Shown: one piece after another, positions 9,966 through 34,707 of the stretch
Layout of the letters: each line of letters starts with the position of its first letter
Position numbering within the stretch: the first letter of the stretch is position 1
The notes under the pieces: generated by a model
The model's input: only the letters and a program-made list of their open reading frames with translations
The model's database searches: none
Told to the model about the DNA's origin: nothing
Source of the DNA: Deltaproteobacteria bacterium
Lineage (GTDB): Bacteria; Myxococcota_A; UBA9160; UBA4427
Length of the DNA stretch: 35,407 bases
Direction of reading: 5' to 3'
Assembly: GCA_029261855.1 (NCBI GenBank)
Contig: JAJDAN010000018.1
Coordinates: 1-35,407 of the forward strand
Position numbers and translations under genes: made by a program

Positions 9966-10049
9966 CGCCGCCTGGCTGTCCGCGCGCCTTCGACCGCGAA
10001 ACCAGGGCTGGATCAGGAGCGCTGAACCAAGCCGGCTGAGCTGAAAGAC

Positions 10050-10712: not shown

Positions 10713-10763
10713 TTCCCACGCTCCCTCTCTCGAAAGATTGCTACTGGCTGCGCGGGCAGGGGC

Positions 10764-11879: not shown

Positions 11880-11881
11880 CC

Positions 11882-13198: not shown

Positions 13199-13213
13199 TG
13201 GGAGACCTCCGAA

Positions 13214-15279: not shown

Positions 15280-15328
15280 GACTTCCTCACCACTGCATCA
15301 CGCGCCCCCGGACTCGGAGCCTCCGCGC

Positions 15329-15407
15329 GTGCGACGATCAATAGGCATTGCGACGATCAATGGGCGTTGTGACGACCAATAGGCGTTGTGACGATCAATA
15401 GTAGGCG
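15329..15407 (-). repeat. 19-bp tandem array at the 3' end of the tyrosine kinase gene
   Basis: Read on the minus strand, four units follow one another: a 22-bp unit (15407-15386) containing the last codons and the TGA of the kinase gene, then three 19-bp units (15385-15367, 15366-15348, 15347-15329) of consensus CGCCTATTGATCGTCACAA with one to four differences each. The first unit has three extra bases (TAC), which encode one of the terminal tyrosines. The array fills most of the gap between kinase and the WecA-type gene. There are no spacers of different sequence, so it is not a CRISPR array. Confidence 0.93.
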
Positions 15408-16255: not shown

Positions 16256-16281
16256 TCGTGCTCCCTCGAACTCCCCCGTCT

Positions 16282-17178: not shown

Positions 17179-17203
17179 CGTCTGCTACTTCACGCCGCCT
17201 TGC

Positions 17204-18826: not shown

Positions 18827-18835
18827 CTTCTATTC

Positions 18836-20119
18836 CTAGTAGCGAATCGGATCGAACTCGTAGCGGATGCCAGCGAAGGCACGAACCGCTTCGAAGTCCT
18901 CGCCCCGCGAGCGGGGGATGAGGTTGGGAGGGGCGTTGAGGGGATTCGAGACGCTGGTATCCGCGATCTGCTGGCGATAGGAGACATCGACGGTGGCGCG
19001 TAGCCGCCGCATCAGCTGGTAGCCGACCGATCCGGCGATCGTCCAGACCGTCGTATCGTTGGTCGACTTGACCTGAGTCGACGGGTTGCGCGGTGCGTCC
19101 TGGGTGCGCTGCAACCAGCCCGCGCGCAGCGAGACGTTCCAAAAGCGGGCGGGCTTCCAGTTGAGCCTGGCGATGAGATCGTCGTTGATGGTCGTGGTCC
19201 CGACCCCACCAAAACCCTCCGCTCGCTTGTAGCGAAGCGAGGTATCGAGGGTCGGGGTCCACCTGCGCAGCAGCTCACCCTGGGCGAACCAGGTGGTCTG
19301 GTTGACGTCGCGGCGCACGAACACGGACTGGAGCACGTCGCACTGGTAGTCGACGGTCTCGACGCGCGCCGGGCCGGCGCGAACCGTCCCGCTCGTGAAC
19401 TCGTCGTACTGGTAGGCGACGGTCAGGAAGCCGGAGTACGACCGGGTGCGCGAGCCCGGCCCCTGCAGCCCCCCGCAATCACCAGAGCGGTTCGACTCCG
19501 CGTCGAGCGTGCGGTAGGAATACTGGCCGCCGCCGCCCACCGTCAGCTGTTGGGTCAGCGCATAGTTGAGGCCGGTGTAGCCGGAGATGACGTCGCTGTC
19601 CTCGTCCTCGGATCGCTGGAAGCGGTAGATGGTGTAGTCGGCCACCGCATAGAAGCTGGTTCGACGTGTCAGGCTGTGGTTGAAGCTCATGTTCGTGGCG
19701 TTGCGAATCGTCTTGCGGCTCGAGTCCACGATGTTGGAATCCGTCGGGTCCGGCGTCACTTCCGATTCGAGCACCAGCTTCTCGAGGTATGCAAAGTCGT
19801 TCGACGCGTGCACGCTGGTGCGCGGCGAGAAGAGGTAGGTGCCCTCGACGACGCCCCGCTGGTTCCAGGTGTTCTTGGCGGCCTCGTTCCAGAAGAAGGT
19901 CGGCTCGTAGCTGGCCTTGTAGGAACCCCGTTCGAGCTCGTCTTCCGCGGACAGGAAGACCGTGTTCCCCCAGACGGCCGATCCCGTCGCATCCTCGCGA
20001 TTGAATACGTTCGAGTCGTAGCCGAGCCGACTCCAGGCGCCGAGCTTGACGTCGCCCGCCGCCGCGATTCCCGGGACCCAGATCAGGCACGCCAGCCAAT
20101 ATGCCAAGACGCGGCGCAT
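18836..20119 (-). CDS. Outer-membrane beta-barrel protein of the exosortase/EPS locus
   Basis: 427 aa. Seen: signal peptide (MRRVLAYWLACLIWVPGIAAA), then alternating polar/hydrophobic strands rich in Tyr, Thr and Arg throughout, with recurring patterns such as SRLGYDSNVF, GSYKASYEPTFFW, SVGYQLMRRLRATVDVSYRQQ, and an aromatic C-terminus (FAGIRYEFDPIRY) suited to BAM insertion. No catalytic motif was seen. Proteins of this type sit between the Wza-like export gene and the Wzz-type gene in exosortase EPS loci, and I infer an outer-membrane step in polysaccharide secretion. ATG at 20119, 5 bp after the export-protein stop; the ribosome site is weak, consistent with coupling. Confidence 0.85.
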   Translation of the reverse strand: MRRVLAYWLACLIWVPGIAAAGDVKLGAWSRLGYDSNVFNREDATGSAVWGNTVFLSAEDELERGSYKASYEPTFFWNEAAKNTWNQRGVVEGTYLFSPRTSVHASNDFAYLEKLVLESEVTPDPTDSNIVDSSRKTIRNATNMSFNHSLTRRTSFYAVADYTIYRFQRSEDEDSDVISGYTGLNYALTQQLTVGGGGQYSYRTLDAESNRSGDCGGLQGPGSRTRSYSGFLTVAYQYDEFTSGTVRAGPARVETVDYQCDVLQSVFVRRDVNQTTWFAQGELLRRWTPTLDTSLRYKRAEGFGGVGTTTINDDLIARLNWKPARFWNVSLRAGWLQRTQDAPRNPSTQVKSTNDTTVWTIAGSVGYQLMRRLRATVDVSYRQQIADTSVSNPLNAPPNLIPRSRGEDFEAVRAFAGIRYEFDPIRY

Positions 20120-20124
20120 GGCGA

Positions 20125-20721
20125 TCAGTCCGGAACCACGACGGTGTCGCCGGCCTCGAGCACGATGTTCGATTCGGGCTCCTTGCCGGACAGGTAGGCG
20201 TCGTAGTCGAAGCGGTACTCGACGAGGCCCGTCGGCGTCTGGCGCAGGACCTTCACCTGGCTCTTCTTCGCCCAGGTCGTGAAGCCGCCGGCTCGCGCCA
20301 ACGCGTCGAGCACGCGCGTCTCCTTCTGGAGCGGAATCTCACCGTTCCGAACGACACCTCCCATGATCGCGACGGTGTTGCTGTTCATGCCGATCACGAT
20401 GACGGTCACGTCGGGGTTGGTGATGTACTCCGACAACGCCTCGGTGACGACTTCCTTCAGCTCCTCGGCGGTCAGTCCCTCGGCCTGGACGTCGTCGAGC
20501 AAGGGCACGGATACCATGCCGTCCGGCCGGACGACGACGCGGGCGCTCAGTTCGGGATTCTTCCAGACGTTGACCTGCAGCTGATCGGTGACCCCGATGA
20601 CATAAGGCAGTCGCTCGCCGACGCCCGGCGGCGGCGGCGGCGCGGGCGGCGGTTCCACGCAAGCCAGCGCCAGGAACGCCGCGGCGCACAGCACGGCACC
20701 GAGCGACGTGACACCCTTCAT
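20125..20721 (-). CDS. Wza-type polysaccharide export lipoprotein
   Basis: 198-aa outer-membrane polysaccharide secretin family member. Seen: signal peptide with lipobox LALAC (Cys21), a Pro-rich spacer (PPPAPPPPPG), a polysaccharide-export (PES) domain starting YVIGVTDQLQVNVWKNPELS and VVVRPDGMVSVPLLDDV, and one SLBB-type domain (VAIMGGVVRNGEIPLQKETRVLDALARAGG). It is much shorter than E. coli Wza (about 380 aa) and has a single SLBB domain and no C-terminal barrel helix. The neighbouring outer-membrane barrel may provide the pore. The ATG at 20721 has GGAGGAGAGG just upstream, better than the in-frame ATGs further up, and leaves 22 bp after prsR. Confidence 0.92.
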   Translation of the reverse strand: MKGVTSLGAVLCAAAFLALACVEPPPAPPPPPGVGERLPYVIGVTDQLQVNVWKNPELSARVVVRPDGMVSVPLLDDVQAEGLTAEELKEVVTEALSEYITNPDVTVIVIGMNSNTVAIMGGVVRNGEIPLQKETRVLDALARAGGFTTWAKKSQVKVLRQTPTGLVEYRFDYDAYLSGKEPESNIVLEAGDTVVVPD

Positions 20722-20743
20722 CGTCCTCTCCTCCATCAGATGG

Positions 20744-22159
20744 CTAGCGCCCCTCACTGAGTCCGTTCTCCTTCATCTTGTAGAGCAGCGCCTTGTACGA
20801 GATCTGAAGTCGCTCGGCGGCTTCCTTCCGGTTCCAGCGGGTCTGGTGCAGCACCCGCTCGATGACTTTCTTCTCGGCGATCTGTGCGGCACGCTTCGAG
20901 ATCGCCTTGAGGTCGAGGGCCTGCCCGCTCGAGAAGTCGGCGCCCAGGCCTGCGAGGTCGAGCCCTTCGCCGCCCTCTTCTTCGACCGGAGCTTCGCGCA
21001 TGGCGATCTCCTGGAGCACGGCGTCCTCGTTCCCGAGCACGACCATGCGCTTCACCATGTTCTCGAGCTCGCGCACGTTGCCCGGCCAGTGGTAGTTGAG
21101 CATCGCTTCGAGCGTCTTCTCCGTGAGCTGCGGCTGGGTCTTGCCATACTGCTCGTTGTACATGCGGAGGAAGTTGTCGACCAGCAGCGGGATCGTGTCG
21201 AGCCGCTCTCGCAGCGCGGGGATGTGGATCGTCATGACGTTCAGGCGGTAGTAGAGGTCTTCCCGGAACGCGCCCTCTCGAACTGCCTGCTCGAGGTTGC
21301 GGTTGGTGGCCGCGATGATGCGGGTGTCCACCTTGACGTCGCTCTCGCCGCCCAGCCTGGAGAACTCGCCGTCCTGCAGCACCTGCAGCAGCTTCGCCTG
21401 GAGACCGGGGTGCATCTCGCTGATCTCGTCGAGGAAGATCGTTCCGTGGTTCGCATACTCGAACTTGCCGAGCTTGCGCTTCTGGGCGCCTGTGAAGGCA
21501 CCCTTCTCGAAGCCGAAGAGCTCGCTCTCGAGCAACTCGGAAGGCAGCGCCGCGCAGTTGACCTTGACGAAGGGACGACCCCTTCGGTTGGAAAGCTGAT
21601 ACAAACCGCGGGCCACGATCTCCTTGCCGGTGCCGCTCTCCCCGCGAACGAGAACGGTGATGTCCGTGTCAGCCACCTGCTCGATGATCTCCCGGACCTC
21701 CTTCATGTTCGGGCTGTCGCCCAGCAGGCCGAGCGTGTCGGTCTCGGTGCGCACGCGACCACGCAGGGTCTCGACCTCTTCCTTGAGGGCGTGGGTCTCG
21801 AGCGCCTTCTGGAAGGCAAGCTCCAGCTCTTCGACTTCGAAGGGCTTGCGCAGGAAGTCGGACGCGCCGAGGCGCATGGCTTCTACGATGGTGCGCGCTT
21901 GTCCGTGACCCGAGAGCATGATGACCGGAATGTCGGGGATCAGCTTCTTCATTTGTCGGAGGGTCTCGAGCCCGTCCATTCCGGGAAGCACCGCGTCGAG
22001 GGTGACGATGTCGGGACGCGACTCGGACAGGCTGCCGATGGCTTCCTCGCCGTCGGCGGCCACGCTCACCTGGTACCCCTGACGCTCTCCCAGCGCCTTC
22101 AGGTACTCGCGGATGCCGGGGTCGTCGTCGATCACCAGTACTCTGAATCGCTCGACCAT
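20744..22159 (-). CDS. prsR: PrsR-like sigma-54-dependent response regulator
   Basis: 471-aa NtrC/AtoC-type activator. Seen: receiver domain (1-120) with acidic pocket Asp11-13, phospho-acceptor Asp55 and Lys105; AAA+ domain with Walker A GESGTGKE (173-180), the sigma-54 contact loop GAFTGA (220-225), Walker B TIFLDEIS, and a Fis-type HTH at the C-terminus (RWNRKEAAERLQISYKALLYKMKENGL). All motifs needed for sigma-54 activation are intact. Family members (PrsR) occur with exosortase systems and are expected to control EPS and PEP-CTERM protein genes. ATG at 22159; an in-frame GTG at 22204 would add 15 residues before the canonical start. The partner kinase PrsK is not in the window. It is the first gene of the minus-strand EPS operon. 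Confidence 0.92.
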   Translation of the reverse strand: MVERFRVLVIDDDPGIREYLKALGERQGYQVSVAADGEEAIGSLSESRPDIVTLDAVLPGMDGLETLRQMKKLIPDIPVIMLSGHGQARTIVEAMRLGASDFLRKPFEVEELELAFQKALETHALKEEVETLRGRVRTETDTLGLLGDSPNMKEVREIIEQVADTDITVLVRGESGTGKEIVARGLYQLSNRRGRPFVKVNCAALPSELLESELFGFEKGAFTGAQKRKLGKFEYANHGTIFLDEISEMHPGLQAKLLQVLQDGEFSRLGGESDVKVDTRIIAATNRNLEQAVREGAFREDLYYRLNVMTIHIPALRERLDTIPLLVDNFLRMYNEQYGKTQPQLTEKTLEAMLNYHWPGNVRELENMVKRMVVLGNEDAVLQEIAMREAPVEEEGGEGLDLAGLGADFSSGQALDLKAISKRAAQIAEKKVIERVLHQTRWNRKEAAERLQISYKALLYKMKENGLSEGR

Positions 22160-22212
22160 GGACTCTTCTGCCTTCGGCCGACATGCGGCCACTTGGACGG
22201 ACATCCCACCCG

Positions 22213-22432: not shown

Positions 22433-22544
22433 TTCGGCCAACCACGTGGCAGCCTATTCCACTTTTTTGTTCGCCTGGGTGCGCCGATCACAGGACATAG
22501 CGTCCGAGAACGCCCCCCAGGGGATCGACACTTCACCCGCTGGG

Positions 22545-23729
22545 ATGGCCACCAACGAACCAACTGAGATGGAGAAAGCCCCAGTGGAACGGCCGCAGTC
22601 GCGACCCTCGAAGATCCGCATCCTGGCGGTCGTGGGCGCGCGACCCAACTTCATGAAGATGGCGCCACTGCTGCGCGAGCTGCAGGCCCGTCCCGGAATC
22701 GAGACACTCCTCGTCCACACGGGGCAGCACTACGACGCGGCCATGTCGTCGGACTTCTTCCGCGATCTCGGGATCCGGGAGCCCGACGTGAATCTCGAAG
22801 TCGGCTCGGGCTCGCACGCGGGGCAGACCGCACAGGTGCTGGTCGGCATCGAGAAGCTGCTCGTGGAGCGGGTTCCGGACGCGGTGCTGCTCGTCGGGGA
22901 CGTCAATTCGACCGTTGCCGCCAGCCTGGCTGCCGCGAAGCTACTGATCCCGGTTGCCCATGTGGAAGCCGGACTCCGTTCCGGAGACCGCACGATGCCC
23001 GAGGAGATCAACCGCCTGGTGACCGACTGTCTGTCGACCTGGTGCTTCACGACGGAGAAGACCGGCGACGAGAACCTGATCCGGGAGGGTGTCGACCCGG
23101 CCAAGATCCATCACGTGGGCAACGTCATGATCGACACCCTGCGCGCGAACGAAGAGCGCGCCCGCAAGCTGGACACCCTCGCGGGCCTGGATCTCGCACC
23201 GGGCGGATACGCGCTGCTCACCCTGCACCGCCCCAGCAACGTCGACGATCCGAAGAAGCTGGCGGCGCTGTTCGCGGTACTCGAGGAGATCCACGCCGAG
23301 CTGCCAGTGGTCTTCCCCATCCATCCACGTACGCGCGGCGCCATCGAGAGCCTGCTCGGGGGCCGGTCCCCGGGCCTCCGCCTGCTGCCGCCACAGGGCT
23401 ATCTCGACTTCCTGCGGCTGATGATGGACGCCAAGGTCGTGCTGACCGATTCCGGTGGCATCCAGGAAGAGACGACCGCACTCGGAGTCCCCTGCCTCAC
23501 CCTGCGCGACAACACCGAACGTCCCATCACCGTCGACGAGGGCACCAACATCCTGGTCGGGTCCGACCCGGAAGCGCTGCGCGCGGCAGCGCGGAAGGTC
23601 CTCGACGGACATGCGAAGAAGGGACGCGTCCCCGCCCTGTGGGACGGGCACGCCTCGGCGCGGATTGCAGACGTGCTCGAACGCGACCTTCTCGGTACTC
23701 GTTCGGGCGCGGGCAGCAGCGGCGGATGA
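22545..23729 (+). CDS. wecB: UDP-N-acetylglucosamine 2-epimerase (non-hydrolysing)
   Basis: Interconverts UDP-GlcNAc and UDP-ManNAc. Seen: VVGARPNFMKMAPLL, LLVHTGQHYD, VLLVGDVNST, HVEAGLRSGDRTMPEEINRLVTD (catalytic acidic residues of the family), LTLHRPSNVDDP (catalytic His), PIHPRTR, DSGGIQEE and LRDNTERPIT. The start is uncertain: the ATG at 22545 gives 394 aa, the ATG at 22569 gives 386 aa and sits closer to the conserved N-terminus, and a GTG at 22446 would begin inside the regulatory region. None has a strong ribosome site. First gene of the plus-strand EPS operon; its stop overlaps the exosortase ATG (ATGA at 23726-23729). Confidence 0.93.
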   Translation: MATNEPTEMEKAPVERPQSRPSKIRILAVVGARPNFMKMAPLLRELQARPGIETLLVHTGQHYDAAMSSDFFRDLGIREPDVNLEVGSGSHAGQTAQVLVGIEKLLVERVPDAVLLVGDVNSTVAASLAAAKLLIPVAHVEAGLRSGDRTMPEEINRLVTDCLSTWCFTTEKTGDENLIREGVDPAKIHHVGNVMIDTLRANEERARKLDTLAGLDLAPGGYALLTLHRPSNVDDPKKLAALFAVLEEIHAELPVVFPIHPRTRGAIESLLGGRSPGLRLLPPQGYLDFLRLMMDAKVVLTDSGGIQEETTALGVPCLTLRDNTERPITVDEGTNILVGSDPEALRAAARKVLDGHAKKGRVPALWDGHASARIADVLERDLLGTRSGAGSSGG

Positions 23730-24616
23730 CGGAAGCCGCGGCGGAGACGGGCCTCTCGCGCCGCGCCCGGCTACAGCTGGGGGGCGGGGCGATCGCCCTC
23801 GCCGTTCTCATCTACGCCGAGATCCTCTACCACATGGTCCTGCACTGGAAGATCGTGCCGGACTACTCGCACGGCTTCCTCGTGGCCCCGCTGGCGATCT
23901 TCTTCGCCTGGGAGCGAAAGCACGAGCTGTCGCGTGCGCCGGTAGCCGGTAGCTGGTGGGGGCTGCTGCCGCTTTCGCTCGGGCTGATCGCCCTTGCGAT
24001 CGGGCGTCTCGGCGTCGAGCTCACCGCCATGCGCACGGGCTTCGTCCTGACGCTCATCGGTCTCGTGCTGCTGCTCTTCGGCCGGGAGATCTTTCGCATC
24101 CTGGCCTTCCCGCTGCTCTTCCTCTTCCTGATGGTGCCGCTGCCCCAGTCCCTGGTGAACGTCATCGCGTTCCCGCTGCAGCTCATCGCAGCCAAGGCAG
24201 CGGTCGCCAGCCTGCACGGCCTGGGGATTCCGGCACTGCTCGAGGGCAACATCATCCACCTGGCGAATGCACCCTCGCTCTTCGTGGAAGAGGCCTGCAG
24301 TGGGCTGCGGTCGCTGATGGCGCTGCTCACCCTCGGCGTCGTATTCGCCTACTTCTTCCGCAAGAACCTCGGCGAGCGGCTCCTCCTGGTCGTGTCGACC
24401 ATCCCGATTGCCATCCTGGTGAACGCGCTGCGCGTGGCCCTCACGGGCATCCTCACCCACCGCTTCGGCGAGGACGCAGCGACGGGCTTCATTCACGACT
24501 TCCAGGGTGTGATCACCTTCTCGGTCGCATTCCTGCTGCTGCTCCTCGAGGCAAGCGCCATCGGGTGGCTCCGACGCGAGCGAGGCGCAGACGTATCCGC
24601 AAGGAGACACGCATGA
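23726..24616 (+). CDS. xrt: Exosortase (EpsH/Xrt family), stand-alone
   Basis: Inner-membrane cysteine transpeptidase-like enzyme that processes proteins carrying a C-terminal PEP-CTERM-type sorting tag. 296 aa with about eight hydrophobic helices. Seen: YSHGFLVAPLAIFFAWER near the N-terminus, the MVPLP segment, catalytic Cys191 in EEACSGLRSLMAL, Arg195 beside it, Arg236 in LVNALRV and His257 in GFIHDFQG, the Cys-Arg-His set of exosortases. The EpsI domain, commonly fused at the C-terminus in exosortase A, is encoded by the next gene with an ATGA overlap. The EPS gene set around it is that of exosortase A systems, but the subtype should be taken as tentative. No substrate gene is visible in the window. 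Confidence 0.93.
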   Translation: MTEAAAETGLSRRARLQLGGGAIALAVLIYAEILYHMVLHWKIVPDYSHGFLVAPLAIFFAWERKHELSRAPVAGSWWGLLPLSLGLIALAIGRLGVELTAMRTGFVLTLIGLVLLLFGREIFRILAFPLLFLFLMVPLPQSLVNVIAFPLQLIAAKAAVASLHGLGIPALLEGNIIHLANAPSLFVEEACSGLRSLMALLTLGVVFAYFFRKNLGERLLLVVSTIPIAILVNALRVALTGILTHRFGEDAATGFIHDFQGVITFSVAFLLLLLEASAIGWLRRERGADVSARRHA

Positions 24617-25290
24617 CCAAGGTGGTCGTCGCGCTGGTGTTCCTCGCCCTCAACTTCTACGTCTTCCGCCATCTCGCGAGCGACGAAGTGATCCCGCCGC
24701 GAGAGAGCTTTGCGTCGTTCCCGCTCGCGATCGACGATTGGCAATGCGAAGCACCCGAGGAGATGGACGCCAAATCGCTTCGCATCCTCGGCGCAAGCGA
24801 CTACCTGCTGTGCAACTTCCAAGAGTCGACGAGCCACGAGAGCGTCTCCCTCTACGTCGGCTACCACGAGTCCCAGGTCCGCCAGGGCGGAGGCGGTGGC
24901 GAGACTGCGATCCATCCGCCCGAGCACTGCCTGCCGGGAGCCGGCTGGGCGATCATCGATTCGACGAGCCGGCCGGTGGACTTCGCCGGGTTGCCGGAGG
25001 GTCACGGGATCCGGAACGACGACCGCCTCGCCAAGCGTTTCGTGATCGCAAAGGGAGACGCGCGACAGCTCGTCTACTTCTGGTACCAGGGCCAGGGACG
25101 CGTCATCAGCGCCAACGAGGACGTCATCCTCTATCGCTTCTGGGATCGCGCGACCCGGGGACGAACCGACGGGGCGCTGGTGCGCTTCACGACACCCATC
25201 GTCCGGGGCAATATCGACGCGGCGGAGGCTCGCTTCCAACGCTTCGCGAGCGCCGTCGTTCCCGGCCTCGCCACGTACATCCCCGAGTAG
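24613..25290 (+). CDS. epsI: EpsI-domain exosortase-associated protein
   Basis: 225-aa protein with one N-terminal membrane anchor (about 3-22), the rest probably periplasmic. Seen: the family layout PLAIDDWQC, LLCNFQ, VSLYVGYHESQ, IHPPEHCLPGAGW (Cys106), RQLVYFWYQGQGRVISANE and a C-terminal FTTPI segment. EpsI accompanies or is fused to exosortases and is needed for EPS in Methylobacillus-type systems; its biochemical role is unknown. The strong ribosome site AAGGAGA (24601-24607) and the ATGA overlap with the exosortase stop set the ATG at 24613 and suggest both are made in equal amounts. The next gene follows after 3 bp. Confidence 0.9.
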   Translation: MTKVVVALVFLALNFYVFRHLASDEVIPPRESFASFPLAIDDWQCEAPEEMDAKSLRILGASDYLLCNFQESTSHESVSLYVGYHESQVRQGGGGGETAIHPPEHCLPGAGWAIIDSTSRPVDFAGLPEGHGIRNDDRLAKRFVIAKGDARQLVYFWYQGQGRVISANEDVILYRFWDRATRGRTDGALVRFTTPIVRGNIDAAEARFQRFASAVVPGLATYIPE

Positions 25291-25293
25291 ACG

Positions 25294-26526
25294 ATGCGCA
25301 TCCTCTTCATCAGCCACTACTTCCCGCCCGAGGTGAACGCGCCCGCGAGCCGTACCCACGAGCACTGCCGCGAGTGGGTGCGCATGGGCCACGACGTCAC
25401 CGTCATCACGGGCGTGCCCAACCATCCGCGGGGGGTCCTGTTCGAGGACTACGAGAACCGCCTCTTCCAGGAAGAGACGGTGGACGGCATCCGGGTCATC
25501 CGGACCTGGATGTTCCTGTCGCCGAACGAGGGCTTCGGCGGACGCATCTCGAACTACGTCTTGTTCGCCCTGGCCGCGGTGCTGGCCTGTTTCCGCGCAG
25601 AACGCCCGGACGTCGTCATCGCGACGAGTCCGCAGTTCTTCGCCGGCTTCGCGGGCATGGTGGTGTCGCGTCTGCGAGGCGCGCCGTTCGTGCTCGAGGT
25701 ACGCGACCTGTGGCCCGAATCGATCGTCCAGCTCGGCCAGATGAAACCCGGTCCCCTGTTGCGAACCCTCGAGTGGCTCGAGACCGTCCTTTATCGGTCT
25801 GCGGCCGGGATCGTGGTGAACACCCGCACCTTCATCGACCACATTGCGGCCCGCGGCGTCGCACGCGATCGGATCGATCTGGTCTACAACGGCATCGACC
25901 CCGACCTCTTCCGCCCCCTGCCCCGGGACGACGAGCTGTTGCGCGAGCACGGACTCGAAGGCAAGTACCTGGTGTCGTACATCGGCACCCTGGGACTCGC
26001 CCACGGCGTGTCCACCTTGATCGAGGCGGCGGAGCGACTGGTCGACGAGCCGGACCTCCACTTCCTGATCATCGGCGACGGAGCGGCGCGCGCGGGCCTC
26101 GAAGCCGACATCGCCAGCCGCGGACTCGAGAACGTCAGCCTGCTGGGCCTGCGACCCCGCAGCGAGATCCCGCGCTGGATCGCGTCCATCGACCTGCAGG
26201 TCGTGCTCCTGCGGGACCTCGAGATCTTCACCTCCGTGATCCCTTCGAAGATCTTCGAGTTCTGCGCTCAAGAGCGACCGGTGATCGTCAGCGCGCCGAA
26301 GGGCGAGATCCGCACCCTGGTGGAGGAGGCCGCTGCCGGGGTGGGCCTCGACCCCGAGCAGCCCGAAGCCCTGGCCCGAGCCATCCTGGCCCTTCGCAAG
26401 GACGCCGACGGCACCGCCGAAATGGCGCGACGTGGACGCGTCTGGGTGGAGGCTGGCTTCGTGCGAAACGACCTCGCAAGGCGCATGCTCTGCTTCGTCG
26501 AGCGCTTCGCAGGAGTCGACTCTTGA
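25294..26526 (+). CDS. WbuB-like GT4 glycosyltransferase
   Basis: 410-aa cytoplasmic GT-B glycosyltransferase that adds a sugar during EPS repeat-unit assembly. Seen: N-terminal MRILFISHYFPPEVNAPASRT with GHDVTVITGVPNHP, ATSPQFFAG, LEVRDLWPESIVQLG, VVNTRTF and VYNGID (WbuB-type N-terminal domain), then the C-terminal nucleotide-sugar domain with YIGTLGLAHG, FLIIGDGAAR, LLGLRPRSEIPRW and PSKIFEFCAQERPVI (EX7E-like region). Donor and acceptor cannot be read from the sequence. ATG at 25294, 3 bp after epsI. Its stop overlaps the TTG of the next gene. Confidence 0.9.
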   Translation: MRILFISHYFPPEVNAPASRTHEHCREWVRMGHDVTVITGVPNHPRGVLFEDYENRLFQEETVDGIRVIRTWMFLSPNEGFGGRISNYVLFALAAVLACFRAERPDVVIATSPQFFAGFAGMVVSRLRGAPFVLEVRDLWPESIVQLGQMKPGPLLRTLEWLETVLYRSAAGIVVNTRTFIDHIAARGVARDRIDLVYNGIDPDLFRPLPRDDELLREHGLEGKYLVSYIGTLGLAHGVSTLIEAAERLVDEPDLHFLIIGDGAARAGLEADIASRGLENVSLLGLRPRSEIPRWIASIDLQVVLLRDLEIFTSVIPSKIFEFCAQERPVIVSAPKGEIRTLVEEAAAGVGLDPEQPEALARAILALRKDADGTAEMARRGRVWVEAGFVRNDLARRMLCFVERFAGVDS

Positions 26527-27917
26527 AACCGCTGCTTTCCCAGGTCTATTCCGTGCTTCCGGTCGGGCTCCAGAGCCTCGCCTGCACCGCGGATGGCTAT
26601 CGACGAGCCCTCGGAAGCTTCACCTCCTACTTCCACCAGACCCTCGAGGACTGGGAGCGGCGCATCGACGATCCGGTCGAGGTCCAGCGCGAGCGTCAAT
26701 GGGAGATGCTCGCGGAGCTGATCGAGCGCGCCCGCGCCCAGGCTCCCTACTACCGCTTCCTGCCGCCGGTCGTGGACGCGGGCGACCCGGCGAGCTCGAT
26801 CGAGAAGACCCTCGCGAACATTCCGCCCCTCGAGAAGGCCGTCTACCGGGCGCGCAGCCGCGACTTCGTCGCGCGGGACATCGCGCCGCGGCGACTGCAC
26901 CAGCGCTCGACCAGCGGCACCACCGGCACCGCGTTGCCCGTGTGGCACACGACCGAGCGGATCGCCGAAGGTCTGACCGCGGTCTGGCGGCAGCGACGCA
27001 GCTTCGGCGTCAAGATCGACGACCCCGTCATCAACTTCACGGGCCAGGTGATCGTCCCCCTGAGCCAGCGCAAGCCGCCTTTCTGGCGGCGCGACTACCT
27101 GTCGGGAATGACGCTGTTTTCGATGTATCACCTGTCCGGCCGCAACCTCCCGGACTACATCTCGGCGATCCACGACACCCCGGCGACCTACGTGCACGGC
27201 TACCCGTCGGTCCTGCACCTGGTCGGTCGCGCGATGCTCGAGGCGGGTCGCTGCCTGCCCCCGGGTCGCCTGCGCGGCATCTTCACCCATTCCGAGTCCG
27301 TCCTCGCCTTCCAGCGTGAGACCATCGAGCGGGCCTTCGGCGCTCCTGTCCGCGACTACTACCACTCGACCGAGGAAGCCGTATCGATGACGGCCTGCGA
27401 CCACAATCGCCTGCACGTCGACATGGAGTACGGGATCGTCGAGGTCGAGCCGGTGGAGGAGACCGAGGAATTCGTGCGCGGCCCGTTGCTCGTCACCGGC
27501 CTCGGCACGGCCGCGACGCCGTTCATCCGCTACCGGATCGGCGACGTCGGCACGCGCTTCAAGGGGTCTTGCGAATGCGGACGGCCCGGCGACGTGTTTC
27601 TCGACATCGACGGCCGCATCGAGGACTACGTCGAGACGCCGGACGGTCGACTCGTCGGGCGTCTCGATCACATCTTCAAGGAGCAGTACGAGATCGAGGA
27701 GGCCCAGATCGTCCAGGAACGCGTGGAGGCGATCGAGGTGCTGGTCGTCGCGGGCAGCGGCTTCGGCGAGCGCGACCGCAAGAGCCTCGAACGGGAGGTC
27801 CACGCGCGTCTCGGAGAGGGCATCCAGGTCGACATCCGACAGGTTGCCGCGATCCCGCGCGAGCCGAACGGGAAGTTCCGGGCCGTGAAGTCGTCGGTGG
27901 GAAGGATCGATCCGTGA
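26523..27917 (+). CDS. CapK/PaaK-family adenylate-forming enzyme
   Basis: 464-aa member of the phenylacetate-CoA ligase/CapK branch of ANL enzymes, likely to activate a carboxylic acid as its adenylate. Seen: ATP-binding STSGTTGTALP (129-139), the adenine-binding segment YYHSTEEAVSMTAC, a Cys-rich SCECGRPGD turn, the C-terminal hinge DGRIEDYVETPDGR and FKEQYEIEEAQIVQ, NGKFRAVKS. The TTG at 26523 is chosen because AGGAG (26511-26515) lies 7 nt upstream, it overlaps the previous TGA, and upstream in-frame sequence is a shadow of the glycosyltransferase gene. CapK proteins occur in capsule loci without a proven reaction; acylation or amidation of a sugar is inference. It overlaps the DUF362 gene by 4 bp (GTGA). 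Confidence 0.87.
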   Translation: MKPLLSQVYSVLPVGLQSLACTADGYRRALGSFTSYFHQTLEDWERRIDDPVEVQRERQWEMLAELIERARAQAPYYRFLPPVVDAGDPASSIEKTLANIPPLEKAVYRARSRDFVARDIAPRRLHQRSTSGTTGTALPVWHTTERIAEGLTAVWRQRRSFGVKIDDPVINFTGQVIVPLSQRKPPFWRRDYLSGMTLFSMYHLSGRNLPDYISAIHDTPATYVHGYPSVLHLVGRAMLEAGRCLPPGRLRGIFTHSESVLAFQRETIERAFGAPVRDYYHSTEEAVSMTACDHNRLHVDMEYGIVEVEPVEETEEFVRGPLLVTGLGTAATPFIRYRIGDVGTRFKGSCECGRPGDVFLDIDGRIEDYVETPDGRLVGRLDHIFKEQYEIEEAQIVQERVEAIEVLVVAGSGFGERDRKSLEREVHARLGEGIQVDIRQVAAIPREPNGKFRAVKSSVGRIDP

Positions 27918-29386
27918 TCCGCGCCTCCCTTGCGCGAACCGCGCCGAGCTACGCGGGACTGATGGCGCCCTTCGCGCCCGACAGCGACTATCCGGAACTG
28001 GGAGCGCTCGCGCTCGAGCCCGCCGCGGCTCCGAACTCGGCCTACGCGGCGGTGCGTCAGGCGCTTCGGGGTCTCGGCCTCGACGCGGACCGCTTCGGTA
28101 CCGCCGAGTGGAATCCCCTCGCGGACCTGGCTGCGCCCGGGGCGACCATCGTCCTCAAGCCCAACTTCATCCGCCACTGGAACCCCCAGGAAGGCGAGGA
28201 CGTCAGCTGCGTGATCACCCACGGCGCCGTGCTGCGCGCCGCGGCCGACTACGCCTTCCTGGCGGCGGGCGCCCACGGCCGCGTGATTCTGGCCGAGGCG
28301 CCGCAGATGGACTGCGACTGGGACCGGATTCGCGAGATCGCGGGACTCGACGAGCTGGTCGCGACCCACGCCGCTGCCGGTCGGCGTCTCGAGGTCGTCG
28401 ACCTGCGGCGCGAAGCGGTGCGCTTCGAGGACGGCGTCATCGTGTCGCGGCGTGCGCTACCCGGAGACCCCGCCGGCTACCGTGTCGTCGAGCTCGGAGA
28501 CTGCAGCTTCTTCGAAGGGTCCGGCCTCGATCCGGCGCGCATGCGCGGCGCCGACTACGACCCGGGACCGACGGCCGAGCACCACCGGGACGGGCGCAAC
28601 GACTACCTGCTCTCGGAAACCGTCCTGTCCGCCGATCTGGTGGTCAATCTTCCCAAGATCAAGACTCACAAGAAGACGGGCGTGACGCTTTCCCTGAAGA
28701 ACCTGGTCGGCATCAACGGCGACAAGAACTGGCTGCCCCACCACTGTGTGGGCTCGAGCCACGACGGCGGGGACGAGTTCCCGAACCGCCGTCTCGTGGA
28801 CCGGCTGCGCAGTCGCGCCACGGAATGGGCCCGGCCCCTGCTACAACGCGGACGCGGCATTGCGCTGATCCGCTTCGCCCGCCGGGCCGAACGGGCGACC
28901 CGCGGTGACGACTTCGTCCGGGCGGGCAACTGGTACGGCAACCGCACCACCTGGCGCATGTGCCTCGATCTGAACCGCGCTTTCTCCTACAGCGACGCCA
29001 AGGGTCTGCACCTGGACGCTCCGCGTCCGGTGCGCCGGTCGCTGCACTTGCTGGACGGGATCGTCGCCGGTGAGAACGAGGGCCCGCTGTCGCCGACCGC
29101 CCGCCCTCTCGGTGCAGTGATCGCTTCGACGGACCCGGTCGCCGCCGACCTGGTCGCGGTGCGACTCATGGGCTTCGACGAAGACCAGCTCCCGATCCTG
29201 CGCGAGGCCATGATCGAGCGCGACTGTCCCATCACCGAGGTGCGGACAGCGGACGACGTCGAAGTCGTGGAAGTACAGGCGGACGGCACCGAACCCGTCT
29301 CGCGTCGACTCGACGAGATCCGAAGCTCCCACCCCTTCAGCGCGCATCCCGGTTGGCGGGGCCGCATCGAGAGACGGACACGATGA
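27914..29386 (+). CDS. DUF362-domain protein of unknown function
   Basis: 490-aa protein with a DUF362 domain spanning most of its length. Seen: IVLKPNFIRHW, ITHGAVLRAAADYAFLAAG, RVILAEAPQMD, LPKIKTHKKTGVTLSLKNLVGINGDKNWLPHH (the most conserved family block), LHLLDGIVAGENEGP, and ASTDPVAADLVAVRLMGFD. No ferredoxin-type CxxCxxC cluster is present, unlike many DUF362 proteins, so an iron-sulfur role is not supported here; six cysteines are scattered. No signal peptide, so probably cytoplasmic. GTG at 27914 overlaps the CapK stop, and its own stop overlaps the ATG of the oxidoreductase. The tight coupling to CapK suggests a shared reaction path in EPS synthesis. Confidence 0.85.
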   Translation: MIRASLARTAPSYAGLMAPFAPDSDYPELGALALEPAAAPNSAYAAVRQALRGLGLDADRFGTAEWNPLADLAAPGATIVLKPNFIRHWNPQEGEDVSCVITHGAVLRAAADYAFLAAGAHGRVILAEAPQMDCDWDRIREIAGLDELVATHAAAGRRLEVVDLRREAVRFEDGVIVSRRALPGDPAGYRVVELGDCSFFEGSGLDPARMRGADYDPGPTAEHHRDGRNDYLLSETVLSADLVVNLPKIKTHKKTGVTLSLKNLVGINGDKNWLPHHCVGSSHDGGDEFPNRRLVDRLRSRATEWARPLLQRGRGIALIRFARRAERATRGDDFVRAGNWYGNRTTWRMCLDLNRAFSYSDAKGLHLDAPRPVRRSLHLLDGIVAGENEGPLSPTARPLGAVIASTDPVAADLVAVRLMGFDEDQLPILREAMIERDCPITEVRTADDVEVVEVQADGTEPVSRRLDEIRSSHPFSAHPGWRGRIERRTR

Positions 29387-31518
29387 AGCAGATCCTGCAG
29401 AACGCACGTTCCGGTGACCTCGAGATCGTCGACGTCCCCGCGCCCATGCCGCTTCCCGGCCAGGTGCTGGTACGCAACGAGTACTCGGTGATGTCGCCGG
29501 GCACCGATCGACTGTCGCTCGCGTTCGCGCGCAGCTCGCTGCTCTCGAAGGCGCGCTCGCGACCGGATCTGGTCCGCCAGGTGGTCAGCAAGTGGAAGGT
29601 GGACGGCGCCCTCGCGACCTACCGCACCGTGACCTCCCGCCTCGAGGTGCCCCAGCCCCTGGGATACTCGTCGGCTGGCATCGTAGAGGCCATCGGGGTC
29701 GGCGTGACGGGCTTCGCGCCGGGCGATCGCGTCGCGTGCGCGGGCGCGGGCTATGCGAATCACGCGGAGCTGATCTGCGTCCCGGAAAACCTGGTGGCGC
29801 CGGTCCCCGCCGGCGTGTCCCTCGAGCACGCCGCCTATGCGACGCTCGGCGCCATCGCCCTGCAGTCCGTTCGGGTCGGCGACCCCACCCTCGGTGAGAT
29901 CGTCGCCGTGGTCGGTCTCGGACTGGTGGGACAGCTCGCCGTCCAGCTGCTGCGGGCCAACGGCTGCCGGGTCCTGGGGCTCGACCTGAACGATCTGCGC
30001 GCCAAGCAGGCACTGGACCAGGGCGCCGAGTGGGCGGCGACACCCGCCAGCCTGCCGTCGACCTGGAAGGAGGAAGCCACCGGCGGGCACGGTGTCGACC
30101 TCGCACTCGTCGCAGCCTCGGCCTCGAGCGCAGCGCCCTTGCAGCTCGGCGCAGAGCTCTGCCGGCACAAGGGGCGACTCGCCGTCGTCGGTGCGATGCC
30201 GCTGGAAATCGAACGCCGCGCCATGTACGACAAGGAGCTCGACCTGCGCATGAGCATGTCGTACGGCCCGGGACGCTACGACCGCAGCTACGAAGAGCTC
30301 GGCAACGACTACCCCCTGCCCTACGTGCGCTGGACCGAGAACCGCAACCTGCGCGCGTTCCTCTCCCTGATCGATTCGGGCAGCCTGCACCTCGACCGCC
30401 TGGACACGAAGCTGGCGGACTTCGATCAGGCCGTCACCGCCTACGACGACCTGGTTTCGGGGCGCTCGGAAACCCTGGCCGTGGCGTTCCGCTACGAGCA
30501 GAAGATCTCCCACGAACGGACCCTGTCTCTGCCGACCGGTGAGCGCACACCCACCGACGCCCTCGGCGTGTCCTTCATCGGCGCGGGCAACTATGCCAAG
30601 GCTCTATTGCTGCCGATGCTCGACCGTCGCAAGGACATCCACCGCCTGACCCTGGTCACCGCCACCGGCGCGTCGGCCCGGCGCACCGCCGAGAAGTTCG
30701 GCTTCAGCGGCTGCGGCACCAACCCAGAAGCGGTCTTCAAGGACCCGAACGTGGGTCTCGTCTTCGTCGCGACGCGTCACGACACCCACGTGCCCCTGGC
30801 CATGCGGGCCATGGACGAGGGCAAGGCGGTGTGGGTCGAGAAGCCCGTCGCGCTCACACCGGGAGACCTCGAGGTGATCGCCAGGGAAGTCGTCGATCGC
30901 GACGCCTTCTTCGCGGTCGGCTACAACCGACGCTTCTCGTCCCACGCGCGGAAGGTCCGGAGCTTCTTCGAGAGCCGATCCGGACCCGTCAGCATCCACT
31001 ACAACGTCGCGGCCGGGCCTCCGCCTCGGGACAGCTGGAGCATGGACCCGATCGAGGGTGGCGGCCGCGTGATCGGCGAGCTGTGCCATTTCGTCGATCT
31101 CGCCAACTACCTCGTGGGCGAGCTGTGCAGCTCGGTCTACGCCCGCTTCATGACGGCCGACGCGAACCTCGACGATTCGATGATCGCGGTGCTCGGCTAT
31201 CCCGACGGCTCGAGCTGCACCCTCGAGTACGTCGCACATGCCGACCCGCGCCTGCCGAAGGAACGTTTCGAGGTCTCGGGAGAGGGCAAGACGGCCCGTT
31301 GCACGAACTTCCGGGTGACCGAGCTGTCGGGGCGTCGCCGCTTCCGGAGCCTCAGCCAGGACAAGGGCCAGGCGAACCAGATCCGAGAGGTGGTGGAAGC
31401 GGTGCAGCAGGGCCGCCCGTCGCCGTTCACCATCGACGAGATCGTGAACGTCTCGCGCGTGACCTTCGCGATGTTGGAATCGGCCGCCACCGGCGCGCCT
31501 GTCATCGTCGAGCACTGA
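29383..31518 (+). CDS. Two-domain oxidoreductase (zinc-type MDR + Gfo/Idh/MocA)
   Basis: 711-aa cytoplasmic fusion. Seen: N-terminal medium-chain dehydrogenase-like half (1-370) starting MKQILQNARSGDLEIVDVP, with LGYSSAGIVEAIG, PGDRVACAGAGYANHAE and nucleotide motif VVGLGLVGQLAVQL; C-terminal Gfo/Idh/MocA half (from about 390) with VSFIGAGNYAKALLLPML, VFVATRHDTHVPLA, the EKPVALT catalytic Lys motif (about 486) and GGRVIGELCHFVDLANYLVG. Such fusions are common in EPS and O-antigen loci and probably catalyse an oxidation-reduction on a nucleotide or lipid-linked sugar; the substrate is unknown. ATG at 29383 overlaps the DUF362 TGA (ATGA). The next gene follows after 11 bp. Confidence 0.9.
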   Translation: MKQILQNARSGDLEIVDVPAPMPLPGQVLVRNEYSVMSPGTDRLSLAFARSSLLSKARSRPDLVRQVVSKWKVDGALATYRTVTSRLEVPQPLGYSSAGIVEAIGVGVTGFAPGDRVACAGAGYANHAELICVPENLVAPVPAGVSLEHAAYATLGAIALQSVRVGDPTLGEIVAVVGLGLVGQLAVQLLRANGCRVLGLDLNDLRAKQALDQGAEWAATPASLPSTWKEEATGGHGVDLALVAASASSAAPLQLGAELCRHKGRLAVVGAMPLEIERRAMYDKELDLRMSMSYGPGRYDRSYEELGNDYPLPYVRWTENRNLRAFLSLIDSGSLHLDRLDTKLADFDQAVTAYDDLVSGRSETLAVAFRYEQKISHERTLSLPTGERTPTDALGVSFIGAGNYAKALLLPMLDRRKDIHRLTLVTATGASARRTAEKFGFSGCGTNPEAVFKDPNVGLVFVATRHDTHVPLAMRAMDEGKAVWVEKPVALTPGDLEVIAREVVDRDAFFAVGYNRRFSSHARKVRSFFESRSGPVSIHYNVAAGPPPRDSWSMDPIEGGGRVIGELCHFVDLANYLVGELCSSVYARFMTADANLDDSMIAVLGYPDGSSCTLEYVAHADPRLPKERFEVSGEGKTARCTNFRVTELSGRRRFRSLSQDKGQANQIREVVEAVQQGRPSPFTIDEIVNVSRVTFAMLESAATGAPVIVEH

Positions 31519-31529
31519 GCGGGCGTCGC

Positions 31530-32708
31530 GTGAAGGTGGTCCTCGTCCACCGGGTGCTGCCCCATTGGCGCATCCCCGTCTTCCGACGACTGGCTTCCCG
31601 GCCCGGCATCGACTTCGTCGCCCTGCACGGAAGCGACTTCCCGGGCACCAAGACGGTGAACGGAAGCGACCTCACCGGCTTCGACCACGAGGAAATGTGG
31701 ACCCTGCGGCTGGTCTCGAAGGTCACCGCCGAGCGCGAGATCACCTTCCCGCTGTGGCCCACCCTGCCGTGGCATCTCGTGCGCGAACGCCCCGACGTGA
31801 TCCTGGCGGAGGGCGGATCCAACCTGCCGAGCGCCTTCCTGCTGATCGCTTGTGCGCTGCTTCTGCGGGTGCCCGTCGTGTGGTGGAGCCTCGGAGAAAT
31901 CCCGCATCCCGGGCCGCCCAGCCGATCGCAACGACTCTTCCGCGTTCTCGTTCGCTTCCTCGAGCGACGCTGCACCGCGTATCTCGGCTACAGCAGCCTC
32001 GCGGGGGACTACTTTCGCCGCTGCGGGTACCCGGCCGAGCGCTGCTTCGTCGCCGTCAACTGCGTCGACACCGACGCGGTGAATGCGCGGCTCCCCGAAG
32101 CCCGCCGGGCGGCGCCCGCACTCCGGGAAAAGCTCGCTCTCGAGGGAAAGCGGGTCTTGCTCTTCGTCGGCGCACTGGCGCCGTACAAGCGGGTCGAGGA
32201 CCTCATCTCGGTCTATGCGCGACTGCGCGAGCGACATCCCGACTTGCGACTGCTGATCGTCGGGGGTGGGCCGCACCGCACGGTTCTCGAAGCCCACGCG
32301 CGTGCCGTGGGCGCCGACGACACGATTTTCACCGGCGAGGTCGTGGAAGGGGTCGGCCCCTACTTCGAGCTGGGGGACGTGCTCGTCCTGCCCGGGCTCG
32401 GAGGGCTCGCGATTTCCGAGGCCATGACCCATGGCCTGCCCATCGTCGCAACCCTGGCCGATGGCTGCGAGCTCGACCTGATCGAGGACGGCCGCAGCGG
32501 ACACATCGTCGAGACCGGCGATCTCGCGCAACTCGAACGGTGCCTCGGCGAAATGCTCGCGGGCGACCTTCGACTCGAAGAGATGGGTGCGGCCGGTCGC
32601 CGCATCATCGACGAGCGCCACGACATCGGCAGTTACATGGAGAAGCTGGTGGCGGCCCTGGAGTTCGCCGCCGGCGCCGAACGACGCTGGCGCCCCGGCC
32701 AGAGTTGA
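31530..32708 (+). CDS. GT4-type glycosyltransferase
   Basis: 392-aa GT-B glycosyltransferase. Seen: N-terminal VKVVLVHRVLPHWRIPVFRRLA, PDVILAEGGSNLPSAFLL, SSLAGDYFRRCGYPAERCFVAVNCVDTD, then the C-terminal domain VLLFVGALAPYKRVEDLISVYARLRERHPDLRLLIVGGGPHRTVLE, TGEVVEGVGPYFELGDVLVLPGLGGLAISEAMTHGLPIVAT (family EX7E-like motif) and EDGRSGHIVETGD. Start GTG at 31530, with the conserved first beta strand immediately following; ribosome site weak. Last gene of the plus-strand operon. Its final 18 bp, including the stop, are duplicated immediately downstream. Confidence 0.87.
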   Translation: MKVVLVHRVLPHWRIPVFRRLASRPGIDFVALHGSDFPGTKTVNGSDLTGFDHEEMWTLRLVSKVTAEREITFPLWPTLPWHLVRERPDVILAEGGSNLPSAFLLIACALLLRVPVVWWSLGEIPHPGPPSRSQRLFRVLVRFLERRCTAYLGYSSLAGDYFRRCGYPAERCFVAVNCVDTDAVNARLPEARRAAPALREKLALEGKRVLLFVGALAPYKRVEDLISVYARLRERHPDLRLLIVGGGPHRTVLEAHARAVGADDTIFTGEVVEGVGPYFELGDVLVLPGLGGLAISEAMTHGLPIVATLADGCELDLIEDGRSGHIVETGDLAQLERCLGEMLAGDLRLEEMGAAGRRIIDERHDIGSYMEKLVAALEFAAGAERRWRPGQS

Positions 32709-32728: not shown

Positions 32729-33574
32729 TCAGTCGTAGCCGAGGGCGCCCATCTCATCACCGCAGATCGCGTTGATGCGCGAGAGGTTCTCCCCGAAGAA
32801 CCTGGACCAGTCGACCCCGCTGTCCCCCGGGCGCTGGAAGGGACGGTCGAGCAGGTCATCGATGTCCCGAACAATTGGGACACCGAGCGCGACCGCCAGG
32901 CGCCGGATCTCGCCCTGCTTGTCCGTCTGGAACGCCTCGTAGCGACACAGGCGCATCGTCTCGGGCTGGTCGAGATAGACTCGCGCGCAACGCGCCCAGC
33001 GACCCGCCAGCTGCTCGATGTAGTGGTCGCCCGCGATCCCGAGCCAACGCCCGTCGAGAACCAGACGCCAGGTCGGGTTCAGACGGGCGCGCACCGCCGC
33101 CGTCACGTCGGCCAGGTCTCCCGGGATGGCGAGATTGTCGAGCAGGCTGCGAATCTGGTCGCGCGGGTCTCGCACGACGAACACGATCGGCGACTCCGGA
33201 AACGCCTCCACCAGCCACGGATGGAGCAAGGTCAGGTTCGGCTCCTTCACGATCTCGTGGGAGAACTCCCAGCGATTCATCTCGATGTAGCGCTCGAAGG
33301 ACAAGCTACCGGCGTGCACCTGTTGAAAGTGAGGTCGCTCGATCTCGATCAGCATGTCGATGGAAACCGAGCGCCCGCTAGCTCCAGCCAGCATCCCGGC
33401 GATGGCCGAGGTGCCCGACTTCTGGTTCCCGAGCACGAAGACCGGGCGAGGGTGGACGGTCGCACCCGCATTTCGGATCGCATGCTGCGTCCGGCGGGCC
33501 CAGCGCCCGGCGAAGCGGCTCAGCGGCCGGAGCCTCGCGGGAACCCGTGCGTGGTAGTCGACCCGGGGATTCAC
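32729..33574 (-). CDS. PAPS-dependent sulfotransferase-family protein
   Basis: 281-aa cytoplasmic P-loop sulfotransferase. Seen: 5'-phosphosulfate-binding loop FVLGNQKSGTSAIAGML (about residues 46-62), the 3'-phosphate motif IVFVVRDPRDQIRSLLDNL, and a C-terminal helical segment with YEAFQTDKQGEIRRLAVALG. These are the two PAPS-binding motifs of the family, so transfer of sulfate to a sugar of the EPS is the likely job; other acceptors are possible. The GTG at 33574 overlaps the stop of the upstream glycosyltransferase (GTGA) and has AGAGGGG just upstream. The open frame extends 60 codons further, but only as a shadow of the neighbouring gene. Confidence 0.88.
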   Translation of the reverse strand: MNPRVDYHARVPARLRPLSRFAGRWARRTQHAIRNAGATVHPRPVFVLGNQKSGTSAIAGMLAGASGRSVSIDMLIEIERPHFQQVHAGSLSFERYIEMNRWEFSHEIVKEPNLTLLHPWLVEAFPESPIVFVVRDPRDQIRSLLDNLAIPGDLADVTAAVRARLNPTWRLVLDGRWLGIAGDHYIEQLAGRWARCARVYLDQPETMRLCRYEAFQTDKQGEIRRLAVALGVPIVRDIDDLLDRPFQRPGDSGVDWSRFFGENLSRINAICGDEMGALGYD

Positions 33575-34707
33575 GGCCCCTCTGCAACCCGCTCCAGCAG
33601 GCGCACATAGCGCTCGGTCACTTCCGGCCAGTCTGCGAACTCCTCGCAGCGCTTGCGACCCGCATCGAGGCGTCGATCCATCTCCGCCGGGTCGGAGAAC
33701 GCACCGACGACGGCTTCGAGGATCGAGTCCGCGTCGTGGGGATCGAAATACCACGCCGCCTCATCGCAGACGTCCCGGGCGAAGTCGCGCTGGGACGTGA
33801 AAACGGGCTTGCGATGCGACATCGACTCGACGTAGGTGCCCGAGAACGACTCGAGCACGGTCGGCAGGAGCAGGCCGTCGGAAGCCGCATACAGCGCCGG
33901 TACGTCTTCCATGGGGATCTCCCCGAGATTGACGAGAACGCGCGCGAGCGCGTCGCGCGAGATCGCTTGCAGGAAGTCCGCCGCCGCCGGCCCCTCGTCG
34001 GGTGAGATCGTCGTGAGGATGACGTAGGGAAGGTCCCGATCCCGGATCCGCCGCGCCACCTCCAGCAGGACCGCGTGATTCTTGTGCGGGTAGTAGCGGG
34101 CCAGGCACAGCAGTGCCTTCTTGCCAGGCGGGATCGCGATCTCGGGGAGCGACCACATGGCGTCGTCCGTCGCGCCGGAGGGCAGCGAGACGGCGTTGGG
34201 GACCACCGTCGCCCCGATCCCCCAGTAGCGATCGAGGCGATCCCGAGCGGTCGCCGTCTGCGCCGCGAAGTGGGTCGCGTAACGCGCGCGGCGTCCGAAG
34301 AGCCAGCGCCGAACTCGGCGGCTCGTCCTCTCCCGGGGCTGCATCCGGTCCCAGACCTCGGGTTCGGGGTAGATCGCATAGGGCCAATGGAAGAGCACCA
34401 ACTGCGGCACGCGAGTCGGGTAGGCGATCGAGCCCATGGCGAAGAGCACGTCCGGATCTTCGCGTGCGATCGCACGCCGGAACCAGACGTGGTCCGCCAC
34501 GCCCCGGGCAAAGCCGCGGTGCACCCAGGCGGGGGCGACCTCGACCCGCACTCTGTCGCCGGCCAGCTCTTCGTAGCCGACCCCCGCCGGCGCGTACACG
34601 ACCATCTCGTGGGCGTAGCGGCCTGCGCGATAGCCGCGCAGGAAGTTCAGCGCAACACTGCGGCCTCCCGCCACGCGGCAGGCGACGGCGTTGACGAGCA
34701 GCTTCAT
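33571..34707 (-). CDS. GT4-type glycosyltransferase
   Basis: 378-aa GT-B glycosyltransferase. Seen: N-terminal MKLLVNAVACRVAGGRSVALNFLRGY, DVLFAMGSIAYPTRVPQLVLFHWPYAIYP, TATARDRLDRYWGIGATVVPNAVSLP, then KKALLCLARYYPHKNHAVLLEVARRI, LGEIPMEDVPALYAASDGLLLPTVLESFSGTYVESMSHRKPVFTS (family acceptor/donor motif with Glu pair) and the C-terminal DWPEVTERYVRLLERVA helix. Sugar specificity unknown. ATG at 34707 overlaps the end of the upstream glycosyltransferase by 4 bp, and its stop overlaps the sulfotransferase start, so the three proteins are translationally coupled. Confidence 0.88.
   Translation of the reverse strand: MKLLVNAVACRVAGGRSVALNFLRGYRAGRYAHEMVVYAPAGVGYEELAGDRVRVEVAPAWVHRGFARGVADHVWFRRAIAREDPDVLFAMGSIAYPTRVPQLVLFHWPYAIYPEPEVWDRMQPRERTSRRVRRWLFGRRARYATHFAAQTATARDRLDRYWGIGATVVPNAVSLPSGATDDAMWSLPEIAIPPGKKALLCLARYYPHKNHAVLLEVARRIRDRDLPYVILTTISPDEGPAAADFLQAISRDALARVLVNLGEIPMEDVPALYAASDGLLLPTVLESFSGTYVESMSHRKPVFTSQRDFARDVCDEAAWYFDPHDADSILEAVVGAFSDPAEMDRRLDAGRKRCEEFADWPEVTERYVRLLERVAEGP

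Follow-up and report, generated by a model that had tools for sequence, protein, structure and literature searches.

What does a DUF362 protein do in the middle of a polysaccharide operon? The question is raised by a 35,407-nucleotide stretch of DNA from a Deltaproteobacteria bacterium (contig JAJDAN010000018.1 of assembly GCA_029261855.1, positions 1 to 35,407; hereafter 'the window'), in which a DUF362 gene (27914..29386, + strand, 490 aa, GTG start) lies between genes for a CapK/PaaK-type adenylate-forming enzyme (26523..27917, + strand, 464 aa, TTG start) and a two-domain oxidoreductase that joins a zinc-less MDR half to a Gfo/Idh/MocA half (29383..31518, + strand, 711 aa, ATG start). The best overall explanation, to which we assign a probability of roughly 0.6, is that the DUF362 protein, a divergent relative of the lactate racemase LarA, depends on the nickel-pincer nucleotide (NPN) and feeds CapK in polysaccharide synthesis as a putative epimerase/racemase. 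We consider it a candidate NPN user because it combines the LarA fold with LarA key residues, and because the genes that make the cofactor adjoin DUF362 in related bacteria.

As judged by sequence, the window protein matches a single family, PF04015 (94.9 bits, cut-off 24), while the LarA domain Lar_N (PF09861) has no match in this protein, nor anywhere in its own genome. A search of the PDB with a DUF362 sequence profile yielded three chance-level matches, LarA not among them; it was the fold alone that revealed the relation to LarA. The AlphaFold2 model (pLDDT 94.2) has LarA-like entries as its 12 best solved structures (Z 15.3–16.3), with the next, unrelated entry at 5.5, and Foldseek pairs it with a single-histidine LarA homologue at E 1e-5. 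The fold is thus shared, at Z of about 16, with the LarA superfamily (DUF2088), which includes lactate/malate racemase and gluconate epimerase (PDB 5huq, 6d6z, 9eia). DUF362 and DUF2088 are placed in one Pfam clan, CL0471, and DUF362 has been used as the outgroup of LarA trees (PMC11770544).

In LarA1, NPN is covalently attached to Lys184, the nickel is completed by His200, the phosphate is held by Arg75, and His108 and His174 serve as acid/bases (PMC11770544, PMC7583248). Since direct profile alignment (hhalign) of the window subfamily with LarA is weak (E 0.02–0.2), we built an intermediate profile from 14 generic DUF362 proteins, and the residue matches rest on the fold and on this intermediate. 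The generic profile scores E 4.6e-40 against the window subfamily and E 0.0014 against LarA, where the alignment runs through 360 columns and pairs DUF362 residues with His174, Lys184 and His200. By alignment, His252 (28667..28669, + strand) takes the place of catalytic His174, Lys262 (28697..28699, + strand) that of the NPN anchor Lys184 and, via the generic profile, His276 (28739..28741, + strand) that of the nickel ligand His200; each is invariant in 43/43 relatives. The spacing of ten residues between histidine and lysine is equal in the two families: EPH(174)-x9-K(184) in LarA and KTH(252)-x9-K(262)N in DUF362. A weak local profile alignment further pairs residues 84–87, NFIR (28163..28174, + strand), with the NPN ribose/phosphate side of LarA (Asn84 with Asp72, Arg87 with Arg75); Asn84 is invariant in 43/43 relatives and position 87 is Arg or Lys in 32/43. 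The alignment of these 43 relatives contains many invariant polar residues, which at the level of sequence is the mark of an enzyme.

The second catalytic histidine of LarA, His108, is replaced in the window protein by Gln131 (28304..28306, + strand), a position that is His in 6/43 relatives. His103 was considered as the His108 equivalent and dropped, as the profile alignment puts Gln131 there. Single-histidine LarA-like enzymes (PDB 9q3j, 9q3k; PMC12611868), which have been proposed to act on carbohydrates (PMC12611868), likewise combine the LarA fold with one catalytic histidine of two, but they keep His108 and lose His174, of which the window protein is the mirror image. With generic DUF362 proteins (PF04015; NCBIfam NF052623, Npun_F2552) the window subfamily shares the KPN, KTH-x9-KN and downstream His motifs. 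It differs from them in a long segment of its own (NGDKNWLPH...GGDEFP) and in lacking the CxxCxxC ferredoxin that many of them carry, nested or fused (PMC7955657): the absence of an iron-sulfur motif, remarked on in an earlier, sequence-only reading of this DNA, holds, as the window protein has six scattered cysteines, no CxxCxxC and no nested or fused ferredoxin.

A physical link to the cofactor genes is seen in operons. On a Sulfuritalea contig (locus L044), larE (7552), larB (8409), larC (9070), a DUF362 gene (ending at 11401) and CapK (11421–12803) follow one another on one strand, with UDP-GlcNAc 2-epimerase genes after CapK on the same strand. LarE, LarB and LarC1 all score over curated cut-offs, and neither LarA nor a second LarC was found in this genome. 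Within the window's own phylum, two genomes without LarA contain consecutive larB-larC-larE-DUF362 genes (L117, 4356–8952, - strand; L118, 2138–6813, + strand), all over curated cut-offs. As the DUF362 proteins of these two operons are generic, Npun_F2552-like, and belong to another branch, the larBCE-DUF362 linkage reaches beyond the window subfamily. At L117 the four genes are followed by a carotenoid-oxygenase-type RPE65 gene.

The genome of the window (98.6% complete) encodes LarB (278 bits, cut-off 175) directly before LarC, and LarE at another place (306 bits, cut-off 150); no LarA was found in it, and its one DUF362 protein is that of the window. Among 49 genomes with the window subfamily, LarC is present in 42, LarB and LarE score over cut-off in 38 each, and LarA is present in 27. 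We then compared 283 genomes of the window's phylum, drawn at ≥90% completeness. LarC is encoded by 118/121 genomes with both LarA and DUF362, 21/22 with LarA only, 50/53 with DUF362 only and 17/87 with neither; among LarA-negative genomes, the difference between those with and without DUF362 gives a Fisher p of 2e-19. The association persists for LarA-negative genomes with generic DUF362 only (19/22 vs 17/87, p 9e-9), and LarC is present in 31/31 genomes that carry the window subfamily without LarA. Even within the single families f17 and f18, LarC differs between genomes with and without DUF362. In two control genomes, those of Synechococcus elongatus and Haloferax volcanii, DUF362 and LarC are present and LarA is absent.

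Several observations weigh against an NPN-dependent DUF362 that feeds CapK. The direct alignment to LarA is weak, and one of the two catalytic histidines is replaced by Gln131. The phylum-sample genomes are phylogenetically non-independent, close relatives being included in the statistics, and LarC turns up in 17 of them that lack LarA and in which no DUF362 was detected. The larE-larB-larC-DUF362-CapK operon is known from a single genome: no further larBCE-DUF362-CapK operon was found among 274 genomes of the same class, and there was no plasmid match. Its larC (9070–9891) covers the LarC1 part only, with no LarC2 domain detected and no room for one before DUF362. About a third of the DUF362 loci in the neighbourhood analysis below have no CapK beside DUF362. 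Finally, in four genomes of a single gut lineage (G035, G037, G040 and G041), the subfamily motif is intact and no LarB, LarC or LarE was found; nor does DUF362 have CapK neighbours there. Three of the four are in a separate sample of 21 genomes from the phylum of the gut lineage, requested at ≥90% completeness, in which LarC is never seen without DUF362 but 6 genomes have DUF362 and no LarC. The gut branch either obtains the cofactor by another route or no longer uses it. As a separate observation, DUF362 is followed by an uncharacterised protein of 900 residues at gut-bacterial loci L059, L062, L065 and L067, which have the DUF362 subfamily but neither CapK nor larB, larC or larE.

The strongest alternative is that the DUF362 of this subfamily, though LarA-like in fold, does not need NPN: it would be an isomerase or lyase of sugar acids that relies on nothing more than the His/Lys site, or on a different nucleotide, and the correlation with LarC would reflect shared ancestry and lifestyle. 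In its favour are the gut genomes and the loss of the His108 equivalent, and also LarA groups 12, 13 and 16, whose NPN residues are unconserved and which were judged unlikely to use NPN (PMC7583248). In the window subfamily, however, the NPN-anchoring lysine and the nickel-ligand histidine are invariant; all 31 LarA-less carriers of the subfamily in the phylum have LarC; and in the Sulfuritalea genome, which has no LarA and no other LarC, larE-larB-larC stand directly upstream of DUF362-CapK. We therefore regard an NPN-free enzyme as a serious but minority possibility, at about one chance in four by our reckoning of the evidence, and loading of the window protein with NPN as probable; confidence in NPN dependence is kept at that level because of the gut genomes without larB, larC and larE.

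How firmly do the three genes of the window belong together? A homologue scan with the window DUF362 protein against 85,000 prokaryote species returned 73 loci, many of them from Myxococcota/Deltaproteobacteria at 55–79% identity, with relatives at 37–49% identity labelled Chloroflexi, Acidobacteria, Planctomycetes, Verrucomicrobia, Hydrogenedentes, Proteobacteria and others. CapK matches lie within 4 kb of DUF362 in 48 cases, against 0 in an equal length further out in the same clusters; for the oxidoreductase the numbers are 40 and 3. Co-occurrence of the three families thus goes beyond chance. The gene order is CapK-DUF362-oxidoreductase in Myxococcota, DUF362-CapK-oxidoreductase in most distant loci and oxidoreductase-CapK-DUF362 in two. 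Forty loci have flanks of 4 kb or more on each side; of these, CapK is present in 26, the oxidoreductase in 22, both in 15 and neither in 7 (all 7 distant). In about ten Myxococcota loci DUF362 stands beside the oxidoreductase without CapK. The proposal that the three genes form one unit therefore holds in part: they make up a conserved, co-transcribed polysaccharide module, but the triad is not obligatory (15/40 loci hold both partners) and its parts are partly separable.

The sequence-only reading placed this module in an exosortase context, and that setting turns out to be incidental. An exosortase or EpsI gene lies within 10 kb in 13/20 close loci and in 0/20 distant ones, and the module recurs in several phyla with or without exosortase. 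On this basis we take it to be a polysaccharide module rather than an exosortase module, and reject exosortase as a functional partner.

The gene boundaries, overlaps and start codons described earlier are correct, with GTGA common to CapK and DUF362 and ATGA to DUF362 and the oxidoreductase, and the TTG start of CapK is preceded by a strong ribosome site (AGGAG, nine bases upstream of 26523). While these overlaps speak for coupled translation as a general feature of the operon, they do not indicate a special link between the three genes: 4-bp overlaps occur all along the operon, also at 23726 and 24613, and it is the conserved neighbourhood, not the overlaps, that marks out CapK-DUF362-oxidoreductase. 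The same overlaps, together with the incomplete triad of many loci, could be taken to mean that the three simply ride along in a polysaccharide cluster, transcribed together without sharing a pathway. This is improbable in light of the enrichment of both partners inside 4 kb and of adjacency being kept through three gene orders. Least probable of all is that DUF362 acts after CapK by transferring an acyl or other group, or serves as a scaffold, as first suggested: tight adjacency to CapK across phyla would fit, but the predicted fold and the invariant polar active site are of the LarA nickel-pincer type, the genome partners are NPN biosynthesis genes, and in the Myxococcota loci mentioned above DUF362 occurs without CapK.

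The two partner enzymes can be characterised further. Named models match CapK only as PaaK/F390-synthetase-type, and none scores above 73 bits where the cut-offs are 250 or higher; a CapK profile finds PaaK ligases among solved structures at E 9e-36. Its motifs SGTTG, Y280..E284, D341, R365 and K451 are conserved in 22 relatives, the adenylation core and the C-terminal catalytic lysine being invariant down to 32% identity, and this bears out its assignment as an adenylating enzyme. It shares the adenylation motifs and the C-terminal lysine with PaaK-like ligases of known structure – PaaK (4r1l), PaaK-like 6siw, AjiA1 (6wuq) and 2-hydroxyisobutyryl-CoA synthetase (6hdw) – and differs from them in falling far under the named PaaK equivalog cut-offs and in its place beside polysaccharide genes. 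The oxidoreductase combines ADH_N/ADH_zinc_N with GFO_IDH_MocA domains. Its MDR half lacks the catalytic zinc cysteines, with S35 and S38 invariant at that place; in the Gfo half, EKP and H569/D572 are invariant. The latter half has the fold and the EKP lysine of inositol and aminoglycoside-sugar dehydrogenases (scyllo-inositol dehydrogenase 5yab, GenD2 6nor, KanD2 6jw7) which, unlike the window enzyme, are not fused to a zinc-less MDR half.

How might the three enzymes work together? The fold, the residue match, the conserved neighbourhood, the NPN biosynthesis genes and the larBCE-DUF362 operons are computational observations; the steps of a mechanism past fold and cofactor are speculative. 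Lys262 would bind NPN, His276 would coordinate the nickel and His252 would serve as the acid/base. The loaded protein would take a hydride from the hydroxyl-bearing carbon beside a carboxylate and give it back on the opposite face, the substrate being a 2-hydroxy acid or an open-chain sugar acid that undergoes inversion, or oxidation and reduction, at that carbon. We put epimerisation of a 2-hydroxyacid or sugar acid at about even odds. CapK would then adenylate the carboxylate of the DUF362 product and hand the acid to a polysaccharide sugar, directly or via a thioester, and the MDR-Gfo enzyme would oxidise or reduce the sugar partner; this order of steps, and an acyl or amide product, are tentative and rather doubtful. 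Its setting among polysaccharide genes, next to an adenylating enzyme, the absence of PF09861 and the Gln at the His108 place set the window protein apart from the LarA superfamily, with which it has in common the equivalents of His174, Lys184 and His200 and the sharing of genomes, and sometimes operons, with larBCE.

The operon as a whole spans 22446 to 32708 on the + strand and comprises eight genes. It opens with a UDP-GlcNAc 2-epimerase family gene (22446..23729), followed by an exosortase gene (23726..24616; PF09721, 245.7 bits), a gene for an EpsI-type exosortase-associated protein (24613..25290; PF11984) and a GT4 glycosyltransferase gene (25294..26526) whose stop overlaps the CapK start (TTGA); a second GT4 glycosyltransferase gene (31530..32708) lies downstream of the oxidoreductase. 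Exosortase and EpsI (23726–25290) are two overlapping genes here, while their best model, XrtD (TIGR04152), has both fused. A divergent exosortase-type exopolysaccharide operon occupies 7442–22204 on the - strand, with genes for a sigma-54 response regulator, an export protein, a chain-length protein, an XrtA-type ATPase and tyrosine kinase, an undecaprenyl-phosphate sugar transferase, a UDP-glucose dehydrogenase and a PrsT-like TPR protein. Facing the operon on its other side, beside the glycosyltransferases, is a sulfotransferase-family gene (32732–33754, - strand), which makes sulfation of the polysaccharide a possibility.

In a genome survey, about 15%, many cyanobacteria among them, were reported to encode larB, larC and larE without larA and without an identified NPN-using protein (PMC11796402); Haloferax volcanii has been named expressly as one such case (PMC8305020). 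DUF362 is treated as an outgroup or as unknown in the open-access literature, in which we found no paper on NPN use by DUF362 or on the CapK-DUF362-oxidoreductase module. DUF362 proteins are strong candidates for the NPN users of organisms without lactate racemase. A broader proposal, for and against which we see about equal weight, is that the whole DUF362 family is the missing class of NPN enzymes, explaining LarA-less NPN makers including cyanobacteria and haloarchaea, with the window subfamily fixing the configuration of 2-hydroxyacyl or sugar-acid units in exopolysaccharide. If this is true, both a cofactor and a chemistry could be assigned to a large domain of unknown function, and polysaccharide biosynthesis would include a nickel-carbon cofactor, with an organometallic step in polysaccharide assembly.

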